From positions 1 to 64,000 of the forward strand of contig NZ_JAFBCW010000010.1 in the NCBI RefSeq assembly GCF_016907915.1: DNA of 64,000 bases. The letters run 5' to 3'. Below are positions 22,148 through 42,081 of this stretch, one piece after another. The position numbers and the translations under genes are program-made. Source of the DNA: Desulforadius tongensis (GTDB lineage: Bacteria; Bacillota; Desulfotomaculia; Desulfotomaculales; Desulfohalotomaculaceae). The notes under the pieces are model-generated. The model did not search any database. It was not told the DNA's origin and saw nothing but the letters and a program-made list of their open reading frames with translations. Position 1 is the first letter of the stretch, and the number at the start of each line of letters is the position of its first letter.

Positions 22148-22467
22148 AGTAAAGCAAGAACGCTTGTTATTTTTATAAATCAGCTGAGGGAAAAATCGGT
22201 GACCAGTTCGGAAACCCGGAAGTTACAACCGGTGGACGCGCGTTGAAATTCTACAGTACATTAAGGCTGGATGTTAAAAAGGGGCAGAAAATTAAGGGTA
22301 AGAATGCAGAAATCATCGGAAGCCGGGTAAAAATCAAAGTTACAAAAAATAAGGTTGCTCCACCGTTTAGGCAAACTGAGGTTGATTTGTATTACGGTGA
22401 AGGAATATCACGCGAAACCTGTTTGCTGGACTTGGGAGAGAAGTACAAGGTTATCGAAGGAAATTGA
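22148..22467 (+). pseudogene. recA: recA remnant (frameshifted, truncated)
   Basis: The first part reads [12 protein letters not shown], matching the RecA segment before loop L2. The following frame reads [18 protein letters not shown], then [20 protein letters not shown] and LLDLG, in the exact RecA order. The two parts are joined by a one-base loss in an A run (22191-22195): six As would restore the frame. The 5' two thirds of RecA (Walker A and B) and the last ~50 residues are missing. It is therefore a dead fragment, and a functional recA should exist elsewhere. Confidence 0.88.
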
Positions 22468-34676: not shown

Positions 34677-34728
34677 TCGTAACGCAGCTGCTGGGCATGT
34701 TATTATAATGGTGATGGGGGGGAGAAAT

Positions 34729-36177
34729 GTGCTGGTAAAGAAAGATAACCAGCAGCAGAAAAAGTACCGGCTGCAGCAGGAACTGGAAAAATTATTCATT
34801 GAGGAATGGGGTGGGCCGCGCAGCGAACTGGCCCTGGTTTACCTGCGCCAAAATGTTATTCCCCGGCTGGTATCCTGTATAATCACCAATCACCATTATT
34901 TAGAGAATAATACCTTCTTGGATATATTAGCCAATAAGTTAAATACAGAATTTGCTTACCCACCGGCCTTTGCCGAAGGACTGTCCGCAGATGTGGTAAA
35001 TACAGCCATAAAGGTGCTGGGCAGGCATGAAACGCCCCAAAACCACCCCTGGCACCCCTGGGAAGTAATACTGCGCATGCTGACCATAGGCAAAAGCATC
35101 AATGACATTGTTGAAAAAACCTGTTTTTCAGAATCATACATTGAAGTTTTCCGCAAAAAATATCTGAATTTCTCCAAAGCAGCCCAGGGGGAGGGGGAAT
35201 GGTCTGATGATTTTGCCCGCCTGCCGGAACTGGGCGGTTACGGCAGCCAGCTGATAAGATTTATGGAAGACTTTAGAAGGCGATTTAAAGTATTTAAAAA
35301 CTATTACGCCCGGCTGCAGGCGGAGCAGGTTATATTTGACCTGGAACTGCCGGTTGATGCCGGCAGGCTGCTGCGTTTATTGGAAGGCATGTATCATTTG
35401 GAAGGGCGGTTTACCCGCGGTGAAATGATACGGCTGCTGACAGAGAAAACGGGCCGGGCGGTTAATCAATGCAGCGGCATGCTGGCTGACCGGGATAAAG
35501 GTGAAGTGACAGAACTAATAGATAAACTGATAGAAAATCACTGGTTGGTATCTTCCGGCGGCAGTGACACGAAGCTGTTTTTAGCACCCAAAGGGGCCCG
35601 GCTGGTGGTACCTGTTTTGGCTCCCCGGTTGGCCGGAGAAATAATGGAAATATTACGTTCAAATAAAAGCAGCCGCATCTCATGCGCCGCAGAACTGCTG
35701 ATGGGAAAAAATCCTGAAGTGGTGGTTCATGTCATTAAGCAGCTGGTGCAGCAGCAGGATCCGGTGGTTCCGGTTTTATTTAAAGCCCTGTTTCACAAGG
35801 TGAGCAAGCCGGTGCTGTTAGAAATCATCGCCGGGTGCGGTGAGCTGGGTGGAAACACTGCCGCTGAATTGTTAACCGGGGCATTACAGCACCGGGACAG
35901 CATGGTGCGGGTAAAAGCCTGCCAATCCATTGGTAAGCTGGGGGATAGATCCTTCTATTTTCATTTAATCGGTGCCCTGCAGGACAAGGTGCCGCTGGTG
36001 AGGGAAAACGCCGTTAAGGCCCTGGGTATGCTGGGAATGCAGCCGGCTGTTAGTCACCTGGAAAAGGTGATGAATAATCCCGAAGAGTCACCCTCTGTAC
36101 GGCACGGGGCCAGGGAAGCCATAAGCCAATTAAAAGCGGCGCCGGAAAAAAATAGGCAGGGTGATCCGCTGACCTAA
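34729..36177 (+). CDS. HEAT-repeat protein of unknown function
   Basis: 482 aa with no signal peptide. The last ~170 residues are alpha-helical HEAT/PBS-lyase repeats (DSMVRVKACQSIGKLGD, VPLVRENAVKALGMLG, SPSVRHGAREAISQL). The N-terminal 300 residues are helical and not recognised; a stretch about 195-300 (MYHLEGRFTRGEMIRLLTEK ... ENHWLVSSGG) looks like a winged-helix module. GTG 34729 is preferred: GGGGGGAG ends 6 bases upstream. A regulatory or scaffold role is possible. It lies after korDABC but behind that operon's terminator. Confidence 0.65.
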   Translation: MLVKKDNQQQKKYRLQQELEKLFIEEWGGPRSELALVYLRQNVIPRLVSCIITNHHYLENNTFLDILANKLNTEFAYPPAFAEGLSADVVNTAIKVLGRHETPQNHPWHPWEVILRMLTIGKSINDIVEKTCFSESYIEVFRKKYLNFSKAAQGEGEWSDDFARLPELGGYGSQLIRFMEDFRRRFKVFKNYYARLQAEQVIFDLELPVDAGRLLRLLEGMYHLEGRFTRGEMIRLLTEKTGRAVNQCSGMLADRDKGEVTELIDKLIENHWLVSSGGSDTKLFLAPKGARLVVPVLAPRLAGEIMEILRSNKSSRISCAAELLMGKNPEVVVHVIKQLVQQQDPVVPVLFKALFHKVSKPVLLEIIAGCGELGGNTAAELLTGALQHRDSMVRVKACQSIGKLGDRSFYFHLIGALQDKVPLVRENAVKALGMLGMQPAVSHLEKVMNNPEESPSVRHGAREAISQLKAAPEKNRQGDPLT

Positions 36178-38789: not shown

Positions 38790-38816
38790 AAAAAGGGCTG
38801 AGCAGCCCTTTTTTTT
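38790..38816 (+). terminator. Terminator downstream of trxB
   Basis: AAAAAGGGCT/AGCCCTTTTTTTT. A second small hairpin GCTGTATC/GATACAGC follows the trxB stop (about 38695-38716). Confidence 0.8.
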
Positions 38817-38829
38817 ACTTTTTACGGCC

Positions 38830-38880
38830 TTGTCAACGAACATTTGTTTTGTATAATATATACTACAAACAAATGTTCCG
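38830..38880 (+). promoter_or_regulatory. SOS promoter with two LexA boxes
   Basis: TTGTCA (38830-38835), 16 bases, TATAAT (38852-38857). CGAACATTTGTTTT (38837-38850) lies in the spacer and CAAACAAATGTTCC (38866-38879) just after the -10; each fits the Firmicute LexA box CGAAC-N4-GTTYG, in opposite orientation. LexA bound here would shut the promoter, so the genes should be induced by DNA damage. Confidence 0.82.
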
Positions 38881-38892
38881 GAGGTGTTTGGT

Positions 38893-40800
38893 ATGAGTGT
38901 TCACTGGCAGCGGATATTGAAAATATCAGTACACGGCGGTTTTATGGATGGACAGGAAATTGAATTCAGCCCCCATTTAAATTGTTTGATTGGCGGCCGG
39001 GGTTCCGGCAAAAGCACGGTGGTGGAATTACTGCGTTACGCCCTGGATTGTGTACCCGGTGACCAAGTTTTTAAAAAACGCAGCCAGCGGCATGTTCAGG
39101 CTGTGCTCGGCGGCGGTACTGTTACCGTTACGGTACAGTCTGCCGGGGGAAGCATTTATAAAATAAAGCGGCAGATGGGATACAGGCCCCAGGTGCTGGA
39201 TGAAAAGGGCCGGCCGCTGGGGCTGGAGCTGCACCACAGCCTGCAGTTTCCCTTAATGGTATTTGGTCAAAGCGAACTGGAACAGGTGGCAGATGATGCT
39301 GCGGCCAGGTTGGCGGTGCTGGACGGCATGATTCCGGAGCGGCAGAGGTATACCGGTGCCACCAATCAGCTGCGGCGGCAGCTGGAAACCATTCGGCCGG
39401 AGGTGGCGGCGCTGGAGGAAAAAATAAAGCAGCTGGAGCAAAAAACCAAGCTGATACCCGGCTTGAAAGAACGGCTTAAAGAGCTGGAAGAGTATGATTT
39501 AGACGGCCTAATGGCCAGGCGGCAGCAGCGGGAACAGGAACGGTTTTGGCTGAGGGAACTGTACCGGGAGACGCAGAGAAAACAGCGTTATTATAGACAA
39601 AAAGCTGCTGAATTAACCTTTACCATGCCGGAACGGTTTGAGAGTTGGGCCAATGCTCACCTGATAGAACAGGCCCTTTCGGCCTTTGCCGGGATGCTGG
39701 AAAGAGAGAAAAAGAAATTTTCCACCCTGGCGGTGGAGTGGGAAAAACTGCACTATCAACTGGAACCGCTGCAAAACGAACTTGCTGACCGGCACCGGGA
39801 AGCAGAGGAGCAGGACCGCCCGCTGGTGGGCAAATTGTATGGACAAAATTTGGCCAAAGCGATGGATGAGCGCAGTGAGTGCACCGGTATGCTGCTGGAA
39901 CTGGAACAGTTGGAAAGACAGTTAAAGGAAAAGCAGCAAAAATTAAACCACCTCAACGGGGAAAGAAAAAAATGGCTGGCAGAGCTGGAGGAACTGGAGA
40001 GGGAGCTTTTTGTACTGCGCAGTGAAGCAGCCCGGCAGGCCGGTGAGCAGATGGGTGAAAAGTTAAGAGTTACCGTGTCCCGCCAGGGGGACTGCCGGCA
40101 TTACCGCCGCTTTCTGGCGGATATACTGGCCGCTAGCGGCCTGCATTATAATCGGCTGGTGGAGCTCATCGTCACCCAAGTACCACCGGGCCTCTTGGCC
40201 CAAATAATTAGAAACAGGGAATCACACCTGCTGGTAACCCTTGCTGGGTTGGATGAAGACCGGGCCGACAAAGTAATGAATTCTTTAAGCAGCCGCTTAA
40301 CGCCGGAACTTTTATTAGAACTGGAGGAAATGCCGGTGGCCGATTGGGTGGAGGTGGAACTGCTGGACGGCCATACCTGGAAGCCCAGTGATATACTTTC
40401 CAAAGGACAGCGCTGCACCGCCATCCTGCCCCTTTTACTGCTGGACAGCTCGCAGCCCTTAATTATAGACCAGCCCGAGGACCATTTAGATAATGCCTAT
40501 ATATACAGTACGGTGGTGCCGGCGTTGAAAAAAATTAAAACCGGCCGGCAGATAATACTGGCCACCCACAACGCCAACATTCCGGTGCTGGGCCGGGCGG
40601 AAAAAAATATCGTATTGGATTCCAACGGCCGGAGGGGATGGGTGGCCTGCAGCGGCGGTTTGGAAAAACAGCAGGTACTGGAACTGTTGGAACTGCTTTT
40701 AGAAGGGGGAGCCGGTGCGCTGCAGAGCCGGTTAGAAACATACCGTCAAAGGGGTGAAGCCGGTGGGGGAAGAAAAACGAGCCCGGTATGTGATTTTTAA
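38893..40800 (+). CDS. SOS-controlled SMC-like AAA/ABC ATPase
   Basis: 635 aa. Walker A GGRGSGKST at residues 34-42, a long coiled-coil middle (about 150-390, Leu/Glu/Lys/Arg-rich), then ABC signature LSKGQR near 502, Walker B PLIIDQPEDHLDN near 520-533 and the His motif ATHNANIPV. This is the RecF/SbcC/SMC head layout and resembles TrlF-type ATPases, here without a PHP domain. It probably acts on DNA or DNA-bound complexes after damage. ATG 38893 with GGAGGTG upstream. The two LexA boxes place it in the SOS regulon. It overlaps the next gene. Confidence 0.8.
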   Translation: MSVHWQRILKISVHGGFMDGQEIEFSPHLNCLIGGRGSGKSTVVELLRYALDCVPGDQVFKKRSQRHVQAVLGGGTVTVTVQSAGGSIYKIKRQMGYRPQVLDEKGRPLGLELHHSLQFPLMVFGQSELEQVADDAAARLAVLDGMIPERQRYTGATNQLRRQLETIRPEVAALEEKIKQLEQKTKLIPGLKERLKELEEYDLDGLMARRQQREQERFWLRELYRETQRKQRYYRQKAAELTFTMPERFESWANAHLIEQALSAFAGMLEREKKKFSTLAVEWEKLHYQLEPLQNELADRHREAEEQDRPLVGKLYGQNLAKAMDERSECTGMLLELEQLERQLKEKQQKLNHLNGERKKWLAELEELERELFVLRSEAARQAGEQMGEKLRVTVSRQGDCRHYRRFLADILAASGLHYNRLVELIVTQVPPGLLAQIIRNRESHLLVTLAGLDEDRADKVMNSLSSRLTPELLLELEEMPVADWVEVELLDGHTWKPSDILSKGQRCTAILPLLLLDSSQPLIIDQPEDHLDNAYIYSTVVPALKKIKTGRQIILATHNANIPVLGRAEKNIVLDSNGRRGWVACSGGLEKQQVLELLELLLEGGAGALQSRLETYRQRGEAGGGRKTSPVCDF

Positions 40801-41416
40801 TGAGCAGTATATTAACAGACTGGCTGCTGCCGCCGGCAGTGCCCGGGCGGAAGAAAGATTAAAAGCGGTGCTGGCACTGCAAAAACTGCCGGGGGGCATA
40901 TCTATGCCGCTGTTAAATAAAATGATTAACGACAGCAGCCCCTGGGTGCGGCACCACGCCCGCCGGGCGCAGCGCCTGGTGCAAAAGAAAACAAACCCCG
41001 GGGTGGTTAAATATTCCCGGCAGCAAAATACCAGTGCGGTAATCAAAGAAGAGCCCGGCCGAATAAAAATACTGCTGGAAAAACAGCCTTTCATCTTCCC
41101 CCACCTGCTGATTGACAGCGGTAAAGGTATGGTACGGGTAAATGATAAACCGGTTCGGCTTACGGCAGCGGAGTTTAGGCTGCTGCTGACCTTGGCTGAA
41201 AATCAGGGCTGCTATGTGTCCAAAGACAGGCTTTACGCCCTGGCGGTGGACGACGGGGCGGCAGTGGGTAACGACACCGCGTTAAAGACCCATATTAAAA
41301 GAATACGCCAAAAACTGGGTGACGACGGGCGGAATCAAAAATATATACAGTGTTTTAAAAGATACGGTTACCGCCTGCGTGAAGATATAGATGTAAAGAT
41401 CAGCTCCCGGGACTGA
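40763..41416 (+). CDS. HEAT-like / OmpR-type winged-helix DNA-binding protein
   Basis: 217 aa. Residues 1-75 form two or three HEAT-like helices (ERLKAVLALQKLPGG; SSPWVRHHARRAQRL). Residues 115-210 are an OmpR/PhoB-type winged helix (VRVNDKPVRLTAAEFRLLLTLAENQG ... LKTHIKRIRQKLGDD ... GYRLRED, in three parts). No receiver domain with a phosphorylated Asp is present, so it is not a standard response regulator. It overlaps the ATPase gene by 38 bases and shares its LexA promoter. GTG 40763 with AAAGGGG nine bases upstream; GTG 40754 is also possible. Confidence 0.78.
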   Translation: MGEEKRARYVIFNEQYINRLAAAAGSARAEERLKAVLALQKLPGGISMPLLNKMINDSSPWVRHHARRAQRLVQKKTNPGVVKYSRQQNTSAVIKEEPGRIKILLEKQPFIFPHLLIDSGKGMVRVNDKPVRLTAAEFRLLLTLAENQGCYVSKDRLYALAVDDGAAVGNDTALKTHIKRIRQKLGDDGRNQKYIQCFKRYGYRLREDIDVKISSRD

Positions 41417-41440
41417 AATTTTCCCGGGAGCTGATTTTTA
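41399..41440 (+). terminator. Terminator of the SOS gene pair
   Basis: ATCAGCTCCCGGGA/TCCCGGGAGCTGAT hairpin followed by T5. It includes the last codons of the winged-helix gene. Confidence 0.85.
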
Positions 41441-41544: not shown

Positions 41545-42081
41545 ATGAGCAGTAAAAGCAAATTACCCCCATTGTTAATGTTCATTCCCAGGTATATCGA
41601 CGGCAGCGGTGATATTACCGAACTTGTTACCACGGAAGGAGCAGCACTGCGGGATTATCGCGGCATACGCAGCGTGCGTGCTGCCCTGTGCAGGCAGCAT
41701 GCCGTTGATTACACGGCGCTGCGCAGCATTTGCCGGGAAATGTGCGGGCCGGGGGTTACCCCGCTGCTGCTGGCCCCGGGTTACACTTTGGTGCCGGTAA
41801 AAACCAGGGAGGCAATGTTTTCCGGTGACCCCTGCTATGGCTATGTAAACTTGGCCCTTGTAACCGCTGTGCAGCCGTTAAACGAGGGAAAATATAGGGC
41901 AGAGATAAAAACCGCCGTTAAAAATATCGGCGTAAAAACATTGACATCGGCCGGTACGGTAAAACAAAACCTGCGCCGGGCAGAACTGCTGCAGAGGTGC
42001 CATTGGCCCGGCGATATATCTCACCGCCTGCAGCGGCAGGAACTGTTAAAGTTAATACTAAAAACAATAAACTTAAATTGA
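41545..42081 (+). CDS. Hypothetical protein, possibly ComK-like
   Basis: 178 aa, soluble. The central segment LLLAPGYTLVPVKTRE followed by GDPCYGYVNL and the C-terminal HRLQRQELLKLIL resemble the order of elements in the competence regulator ComK (a hydrophobic strand, a basic turn, a Gly-Trp/Tyr motif and a late His-Arg-Gln-Glu segment), but overall similarity is low. The N-terminus is different from ComK. The ATG follows GAGGGAGG. The 11-bp repeat array just upstream suggests control by an OmpR-type protein. Treat the function as unknown. Confidence 0.5.
   Translation: MSSKSKLPPLLMFIPRYIDGSGDITELVTTEGAALRDYRGIRSVRAALCRQHAVDYTALRSICREMCGPGVTPLLLAPGYTLVPVKTREAMFSGDPCYGYVNLALVTAVQPLNEGKYRAEIKTAVKNIGVKTLTSAGTVKQNLRRAELLQRCHWPGDISHRLQRQELLKLILKTINLN

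Follow-up and report, generated by a model that had tools for sequence, protein, structure and literature searches.

The window analysed here is the whole 64,000-nucleotide stretch of DNA, and at its positions 38830-41440 we found a self-contained two-gene unit on the forward strand, running from its own promoter to a terminator-like repeat. The first gene encodes an ATPase of the SMC/Rad50/RecF type and the second an overlapping partner in which HEAT-like helices precede a winged helix. The features are as follows.

38790..38813, + strand: intrinsic terminator of trxB, with a 10-bp stem and a T tail
38830..38857, + strand: near-consensus sigma-70-type promoter, TTGTCA-16-TATAAT (11/12 consensus matches)
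38837..38850, + strand: predicted LexA box 1, CGAACATTTGTTTT, filling the promoter spacer
38866..38879, - strand: predicted LexA box 2, CAAACAAATGTTCC (GGAACATTTGTTTG on the minus strand), covering the expected transcription start
38880..38886, + strand: ATPase ribosome binding site, GGAGGTG, read from the sequence
38893..40800, + strand: SMC/Rad50/RecF-type ATPase, 635 aa, ATG start, from profile matches and a structure model
38992..39018, + strand: Walker A, GGRGSGKST
40396..40410, + strand: ABC signature, LSKGQ
40459..40494, + strand: Walker B and D-loop, LIIDQPEDHLDN
40763..41416, + strand: HEAT-winged-helix protein, 217 aa, GTG start, overlapping the ATPase gene
40802..40993, + strand: HEAT-like module, partner residues 14-77, two helix pairs in the AlphaFold model and a match to the kinase HEAT profile
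41096..41386, + strand: OmpR/PhoB-type winged helix, partner residues 112-208, from Trans_reg_C (6.7e-18), the model and Foldseek
41399..41440, + strand: terminator-like inverted repeat with 14-bp arms, a loop of 9 and a T tail, overlapping the partner stop codon

The pair has trxB upstream and a gene for a 178-aa protein downstream. It is set apart from trxB because the intrinsic terminator at 38790..38813 lies between them. The loop limit of our terminator scan was below 9, and the repeat at 41399..41440 was read directly from the sequence. This terminator-like repeat lies between the pair and the 178-aa gene (41545-42081, + strand), whose product has no match in Pfam, NCBIfam or PADLOC; proteins resembling it are found downstream of the pair in G038, G053, G055 and G056. 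Upstream of trxB and the pair, a HEAT-repeat protein of about 500 aa (34687-36177, + strand) is conserved in relatives. Both overlapping frames, of 635 and 217 aa, are confirmed as originally predicted, and an alternative in-frame GTG at 40754 would lengthen the partner to 220 aa.

By profile comparison, the first protein corresponds to the ATPase portion of TrlF/Ppl superfamily members and has no PHP domain. It matches AAA_21, SMC_N and AAA_23 in Pfam and TrlF_fam_ATP in NCBIfam (3.2e-86), residues 10-618 aligning with profile positions 297-944 only. No PHP domain is matched in Pfam, and the TrlF alignment begins at position 297. TrlF itself (NF045780; trlF of the Photorhabdus TRL operon) aligns end to end with the window ATPase over its ATPase half, but it has an N-terminal, PHP-containing part (profile 1-296) that the window protein lacks. 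The window protein scores 290.9 bits, below the TrlF cut-off of 350 bits, and differs further in its separate HEAT-winged-helix partner and predicted LexA control. The C-terminal ATPase segment of the anti-phage protein Ppl is also shared (NF042955 and PADLOC Ppl, 5.3e-28 and 1.4e-39), but the N-terminal part of Ppl, a protein of about 880 aa, is missing, and 135.7 bits against an equivalog cut-off of 1000 bits does not amount to a full-length match. We file the pair as a variant of TrlF/Ppl-type ATPase systems, outside TrlF membership itself.

The structure model of the ATPase (pLDDT 88.5) shows an ABC-type head split by a short coiled coil, with no evident hinge or zinc hook. Its head fold matches those of SMC, Rad50, RecF and RecN (Z 18-22.6), the best structural row being a crystal structure of an SMC head together with the ScpA winged helix; a sequence search for a solved close relative returned none. 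The ABC-type head with coiled coil, Walker A, signature and D-loop place the protein in this fold class, but unlike the SMC, Rad50, RecF and RecN systems it is not accompanied by a gene for Mre11, a kleisin or RecOR. Its original description as RecF/SbcC-type thus holds for the head fold, whereas by sequence its nearest named relatives are TrlF and Ppl, not SbcC or RecN. Among 41 ATPases, G34, G37, G39 and K40 of Walker A, S503 and Q506 of the signature, and D526, P528, E529 and D533 of the Walker B and D-loop stretch are invariant; G505 and Q527 are nearly so. The H-loop motif THN.NIPV is conserved across the 41 homologs, as are Walker A, the signature and the D-loop. In the Walker B motif DQPED, DQPE (residues 526-529, 40468-40479) carries Q527 where a catalytic glutamate is usual, SMC and Rad50 having DEP. 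One copy (L119) has DEPE, with glutamate at the position of Q527. Because glutamine replaces the usual catalytic glutamate in nearly all members, ATP turnover may be slow or may differ.

The AlphaFold model of the partner shows HEAT-like helix pairs (pLDDT 81-91 across residues 21-70), a disordered linker and then the winged helix. Pfam places Trans_reg_C at residues 129-205, while HEAT_2 is weak in the window protein (0.028) and reaches 1.8e-5 in an ortholog. The top Foldseek matches of the winged helix are BaeR, YycF, KdpE and RstA, and this domain clearly belongs to the OmpR DNA-binding family. A receiver domain is absent from the Pfam matches, which comprise Trans_reg_C and the weak HEAT match, and the N-terminus is helical in the model. 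The partner thus shares its DNA-binding winged helix with OmpR/PhoB response regulators such as BaeR and YycF, but a HEAT-like module replaces their receiver, so that the proposed fusion of HEAT-like helices to a receiver-less OmpR-type winged helix is supported by both Pfam and the model.

ATPases of the SMC/Rad50/RecF type hold, tether or process DNA, and winged-helix kleisin parts act together with SMC proteins. The first protein could accordingly be a RecF/RecN/SbcC-like repair ATPase, with the partner as a structural subunit that tethers or loads it on DNA and not as a transcription factor. The structural closeness of the head to SMC, Rad50, RecF and RecN, the ScpA winged helix in the top structural row and the predicted SOS control, which is typical for repair genes, would all fit such an assembly. 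We nevertheless consider it rather unlikely, since the winged helix is so clearly of the OmpR family and since the corresponding partner in the sister clade described below is a signalling kinase, which suggests transfer of information. Our preferred reading is that the winged helix gives a transcriptional output.

A class-level search of 113 genomes found the stand-alone ATPase in seven: every one of the three genomes from the window's genus, and four from a second genus. The partner adjoins it downstream in 7/7 loci, and the order trxB-ATPase-partner is constant in both genera. The pairing of the ATPase with its HEAT-winged-helix partner is therefore well supported by gene adjacency, as originally expected for relatives. 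In one genome (G038), the ATPase lies in two frames and the partner is split over two contig ends; these broken frames may be an assembly error. Its patchy occurrence in the second genus means that the unit is not a core repair function. Among 398 genomes sampled from the phylum, most of the remaining good ATPase matches lie in longer frames of the PHP-fused type. Two candidates for orphan HEAT-winged-helix proteins (G050 and G058) were rejected as ordinary response regulators with receivers.

We also found a relic of the unit in genome G057 (L150 1280-1822). The LexA box is kept, but all that is left of the ATPase is an N-terminal stub whose Walker A is degenerate. The stub is joined in frame to the winged helix in a 180-aa protein, and transposase genes flank it. 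This retention of a winged helix behind a LexA box, despite the loss of most of the ATPase, is what one would expect if the partner did no more than regulate its own ATPase operon locally, on top of LexA, while the ATPase works alone. Such an arrangement leaves the HEAT module unexplained, even though the kinase of the sister system has a counterpart of it, and we regard it as very unlikely. An output beyond its own operon remains the role that we prefer for the partner.

LexA control of the unit is well supported by the position and conservation of its predicted boxes. Box 2 begins 9 bases past TATAAT, and the two boxes form the arms of a single inverted repeat around the promoter. Their 12-base core GAACATTTGTTT occurs 3 times in the 2.58-Mb window genome, twice at this promoter. 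TATAAT is conserved in the promoters of the orthologs, and a LexA-type box stands at the same promoter position in 7/7 orthologous loci and in one relic. In each of the seven loci, the stretch from TATAAT to the start codon contains [AG]AACNNNNGTTC or its mirror at -23 to -32. Per locus, a box of this kind would turn up by chance in 100 bases with a probability of 0.2-0.7%, values that cannot be multiplied as the loci are related. The second box, in the spacer, recurs in looser form in G038 and G052. Both boxes of the original prediction are present at their positions, and box 2 is conserved in the orthologs.

The box at the unit overlaps its promoter and is of the same type as that at lexA: in 8/8 genomes (the seven and the relic genome), CGAACAAATGTTTT or a near variant of it lies close to the start of lexA. 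In the window genome, recA has GAACATGCGTTT 82 bases upstream and ruvC-ruvA has the upstream box GAACAACTGTTC. This recA is complete and lies on contig C7; a second recA fragment in the window (22153-22458, + strand; TIGR02012 positions 181-281, E 3.2e-33) looks like a truncated duplicate. Box counting was rejected as evidence for LexA control: the loose LexA pattern with two mismatches is found 54 times in the window against 74 expected, fewer than by chance, and genome-wide the loose pattern gives 21 against 21, without enrichment. The evidence for LexA is thus position and conservation, because the counts show no enrichment.

For the wider family, we fetched 80 loci out of about 85,000 species genomes; the short peptide patterns used restrict this sample. 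In 48 of the 80, the protein directly 3' of the ATPase has about 300 aa, with a HEAT-like N-terminus, a conserved His-Glu box and a HATPase domain; in 51, there is a protein of about 470 aa that joins a receiver to a TCAD9/APH domain. These genes make up a three-gene operon of ATPase, HEAT-histidine kinase and phosphotransferase-like receiver-TCAD9/APH protein (L170 5843-9988, L171 5834-10060 and 48 loci among L035-L100), which resides on chromosomes and plasmids and is present in Actinomycetota, Pseudomonadota and Chloroflexota. Annotated examples are carried by a conjugative IncF plasmid of Klebsiella and a mobilizable plasmid of Rhodococcus. The operon is widespread and apparently unnamed. 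It resembles the pair in its sister ATPase clade, the related HEAT module in gene 2 and the tight packing of its genes, but gene 2 ends in a histidine kinase where the pair has a winged helix, there is a third gene, and we found no convincing LexA boxes at its promoters.

A tree of 63 ATPases (quick search, midpoint root for drawing only) unites the pair ATPases in a single clade (support 100), whose sister (97) is the clade of the three-gene ATPases (100), with the PHP-fused ATPases outside both. The window ATPase is sister to the three-gene clade and not nested in it (97/100), and neither a HEAT-kinase gene nor a receiver-TCAD9 gene is present beside it. In profile comparison, the HEAT module of the window-genus partner matches that of the kinase with an hhalign probability of 92 and a score of 36.5, whereas a generic HEAT protein scores 28.3 and none of 200 column shuffles exceeds 15.9; second-genus partners match the kinase HEAT module weakly (probability 15). 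The HEAT modules of the winged-helix partner and the kinase appear to be related, and inheritance of a HEAT adaptor from a common ancestor is plausible, both suggestions resting on short profiles.

Neither the pair nor the three-gene operon is named in the library models and literature that we searched, in keeping with the original expectation for the pair, and PADLOC 2023 contains no model for the HEAT-kinase partner. In the literature searched, TrlF appears in the Photorhabdus TRL paper (PMC7554251), and TCAD9 only in a figure legend of another (PMC10910872). The DefensePredictor paper of 2026 shows in a picture predicted systems that contain HATPase and REC domains (PMC13092281) and that may or may not include the three-gene operon.

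These pictured systems, the kinship to TrlF and to anti-phage Ppl as nearest named relatives, and the presence of the three-gene sister system on conjugative and mobilizable plasmids would suit a role in anti-phage or anti-plasmid defence. SOS would then serve as a proxy for infection, the ATPase would recognise foreign DNA ends or replication intermediates, and the partner would trigger a response. We consider this unlikely, though worth keeping in view. In both genera the unit occupies the same place after trxB, and an effector domain of the nuclease, NADase or membrane kind was not recognised in the pair. Plasmids and phages gave partial matches only, below 60% identity and none full-length; the scan of viral contigs found no relatives, and a search of E. 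coli genomes by DNA gave no match. Among the roles first proposed (repair, mobile element or defence), the mobile one is disfavoured by the fixed trxB site in two genera and by the absence of a similar pair from the plasmids, phages and viral contigs searched; a role in repair or in second-tier SOS regulation seems more probable here than mobile defence.

We tentatively favour, with a confidence somewhat short of even, a chromosomal SOS-regulon unit in which a damage-induced, DNA-sensing ATPase would act through a HEAT adaptor on a winged-helix output at promoters. The sequence comparisons give LexA-type operators predicted in both genera, an ATPase always accompanied by its partner, and a sister relationship to ATPases paired with HEAT-kinases. 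Upon DNA damage, RecA would inactivate LexA and the pair would be made. The ATPase would dimerise with ATP and clamp a DNA structure, such as an end, a gap or a stalled fork, with the HEAT module of the partner as a docking adaptor on it. The ATP/DNA state of the ATPase would then free or position the winged helix, which would bind promoters and switch a second tier of damage-response genes. In the three-gene systems, a similar HEAT adaptor would sit on the histidine kinase, and the signal would pass to the receiver and its phosphotransferase-like effector; in the pair, the output domain would be coupled directly, without a phosphorelay. The SOS induction step is well supported by the promoter sequences; we infer the DNA sensing, the HEAT docking and the winged-helix output. 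The winged helix could merely autoregulate or tether the ATPase.

In some Firmicutes related to Desulforamulus, an unnamed unit of two genes thus appears to be under LexA control. We know of no ATPase of this type that is established as signalling its binding of DNA straight to a domain that binds promoters. It is possible, though we hold it with some doubt, that the pair represents a new kind of signalling unit, in which an SMC-like ATPase senses DNA structure and an exchangeable HEAT adaptor passes the signal either to a phosphorelay, as in the three-gene operon, or directly to a winged-helix transcription factor, as in the pair. The pair is a small, testable case in which the predicted LexA control points to the trigger, and it leads to a widespread three-gene relative that combines this kind of ATPase with a histidine kinase and a phosphotransferase-like receiver protein and merits separate study. 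If true, this would add a second, LexA-triggered tier to the bacterial response to DNA damage or invaders.
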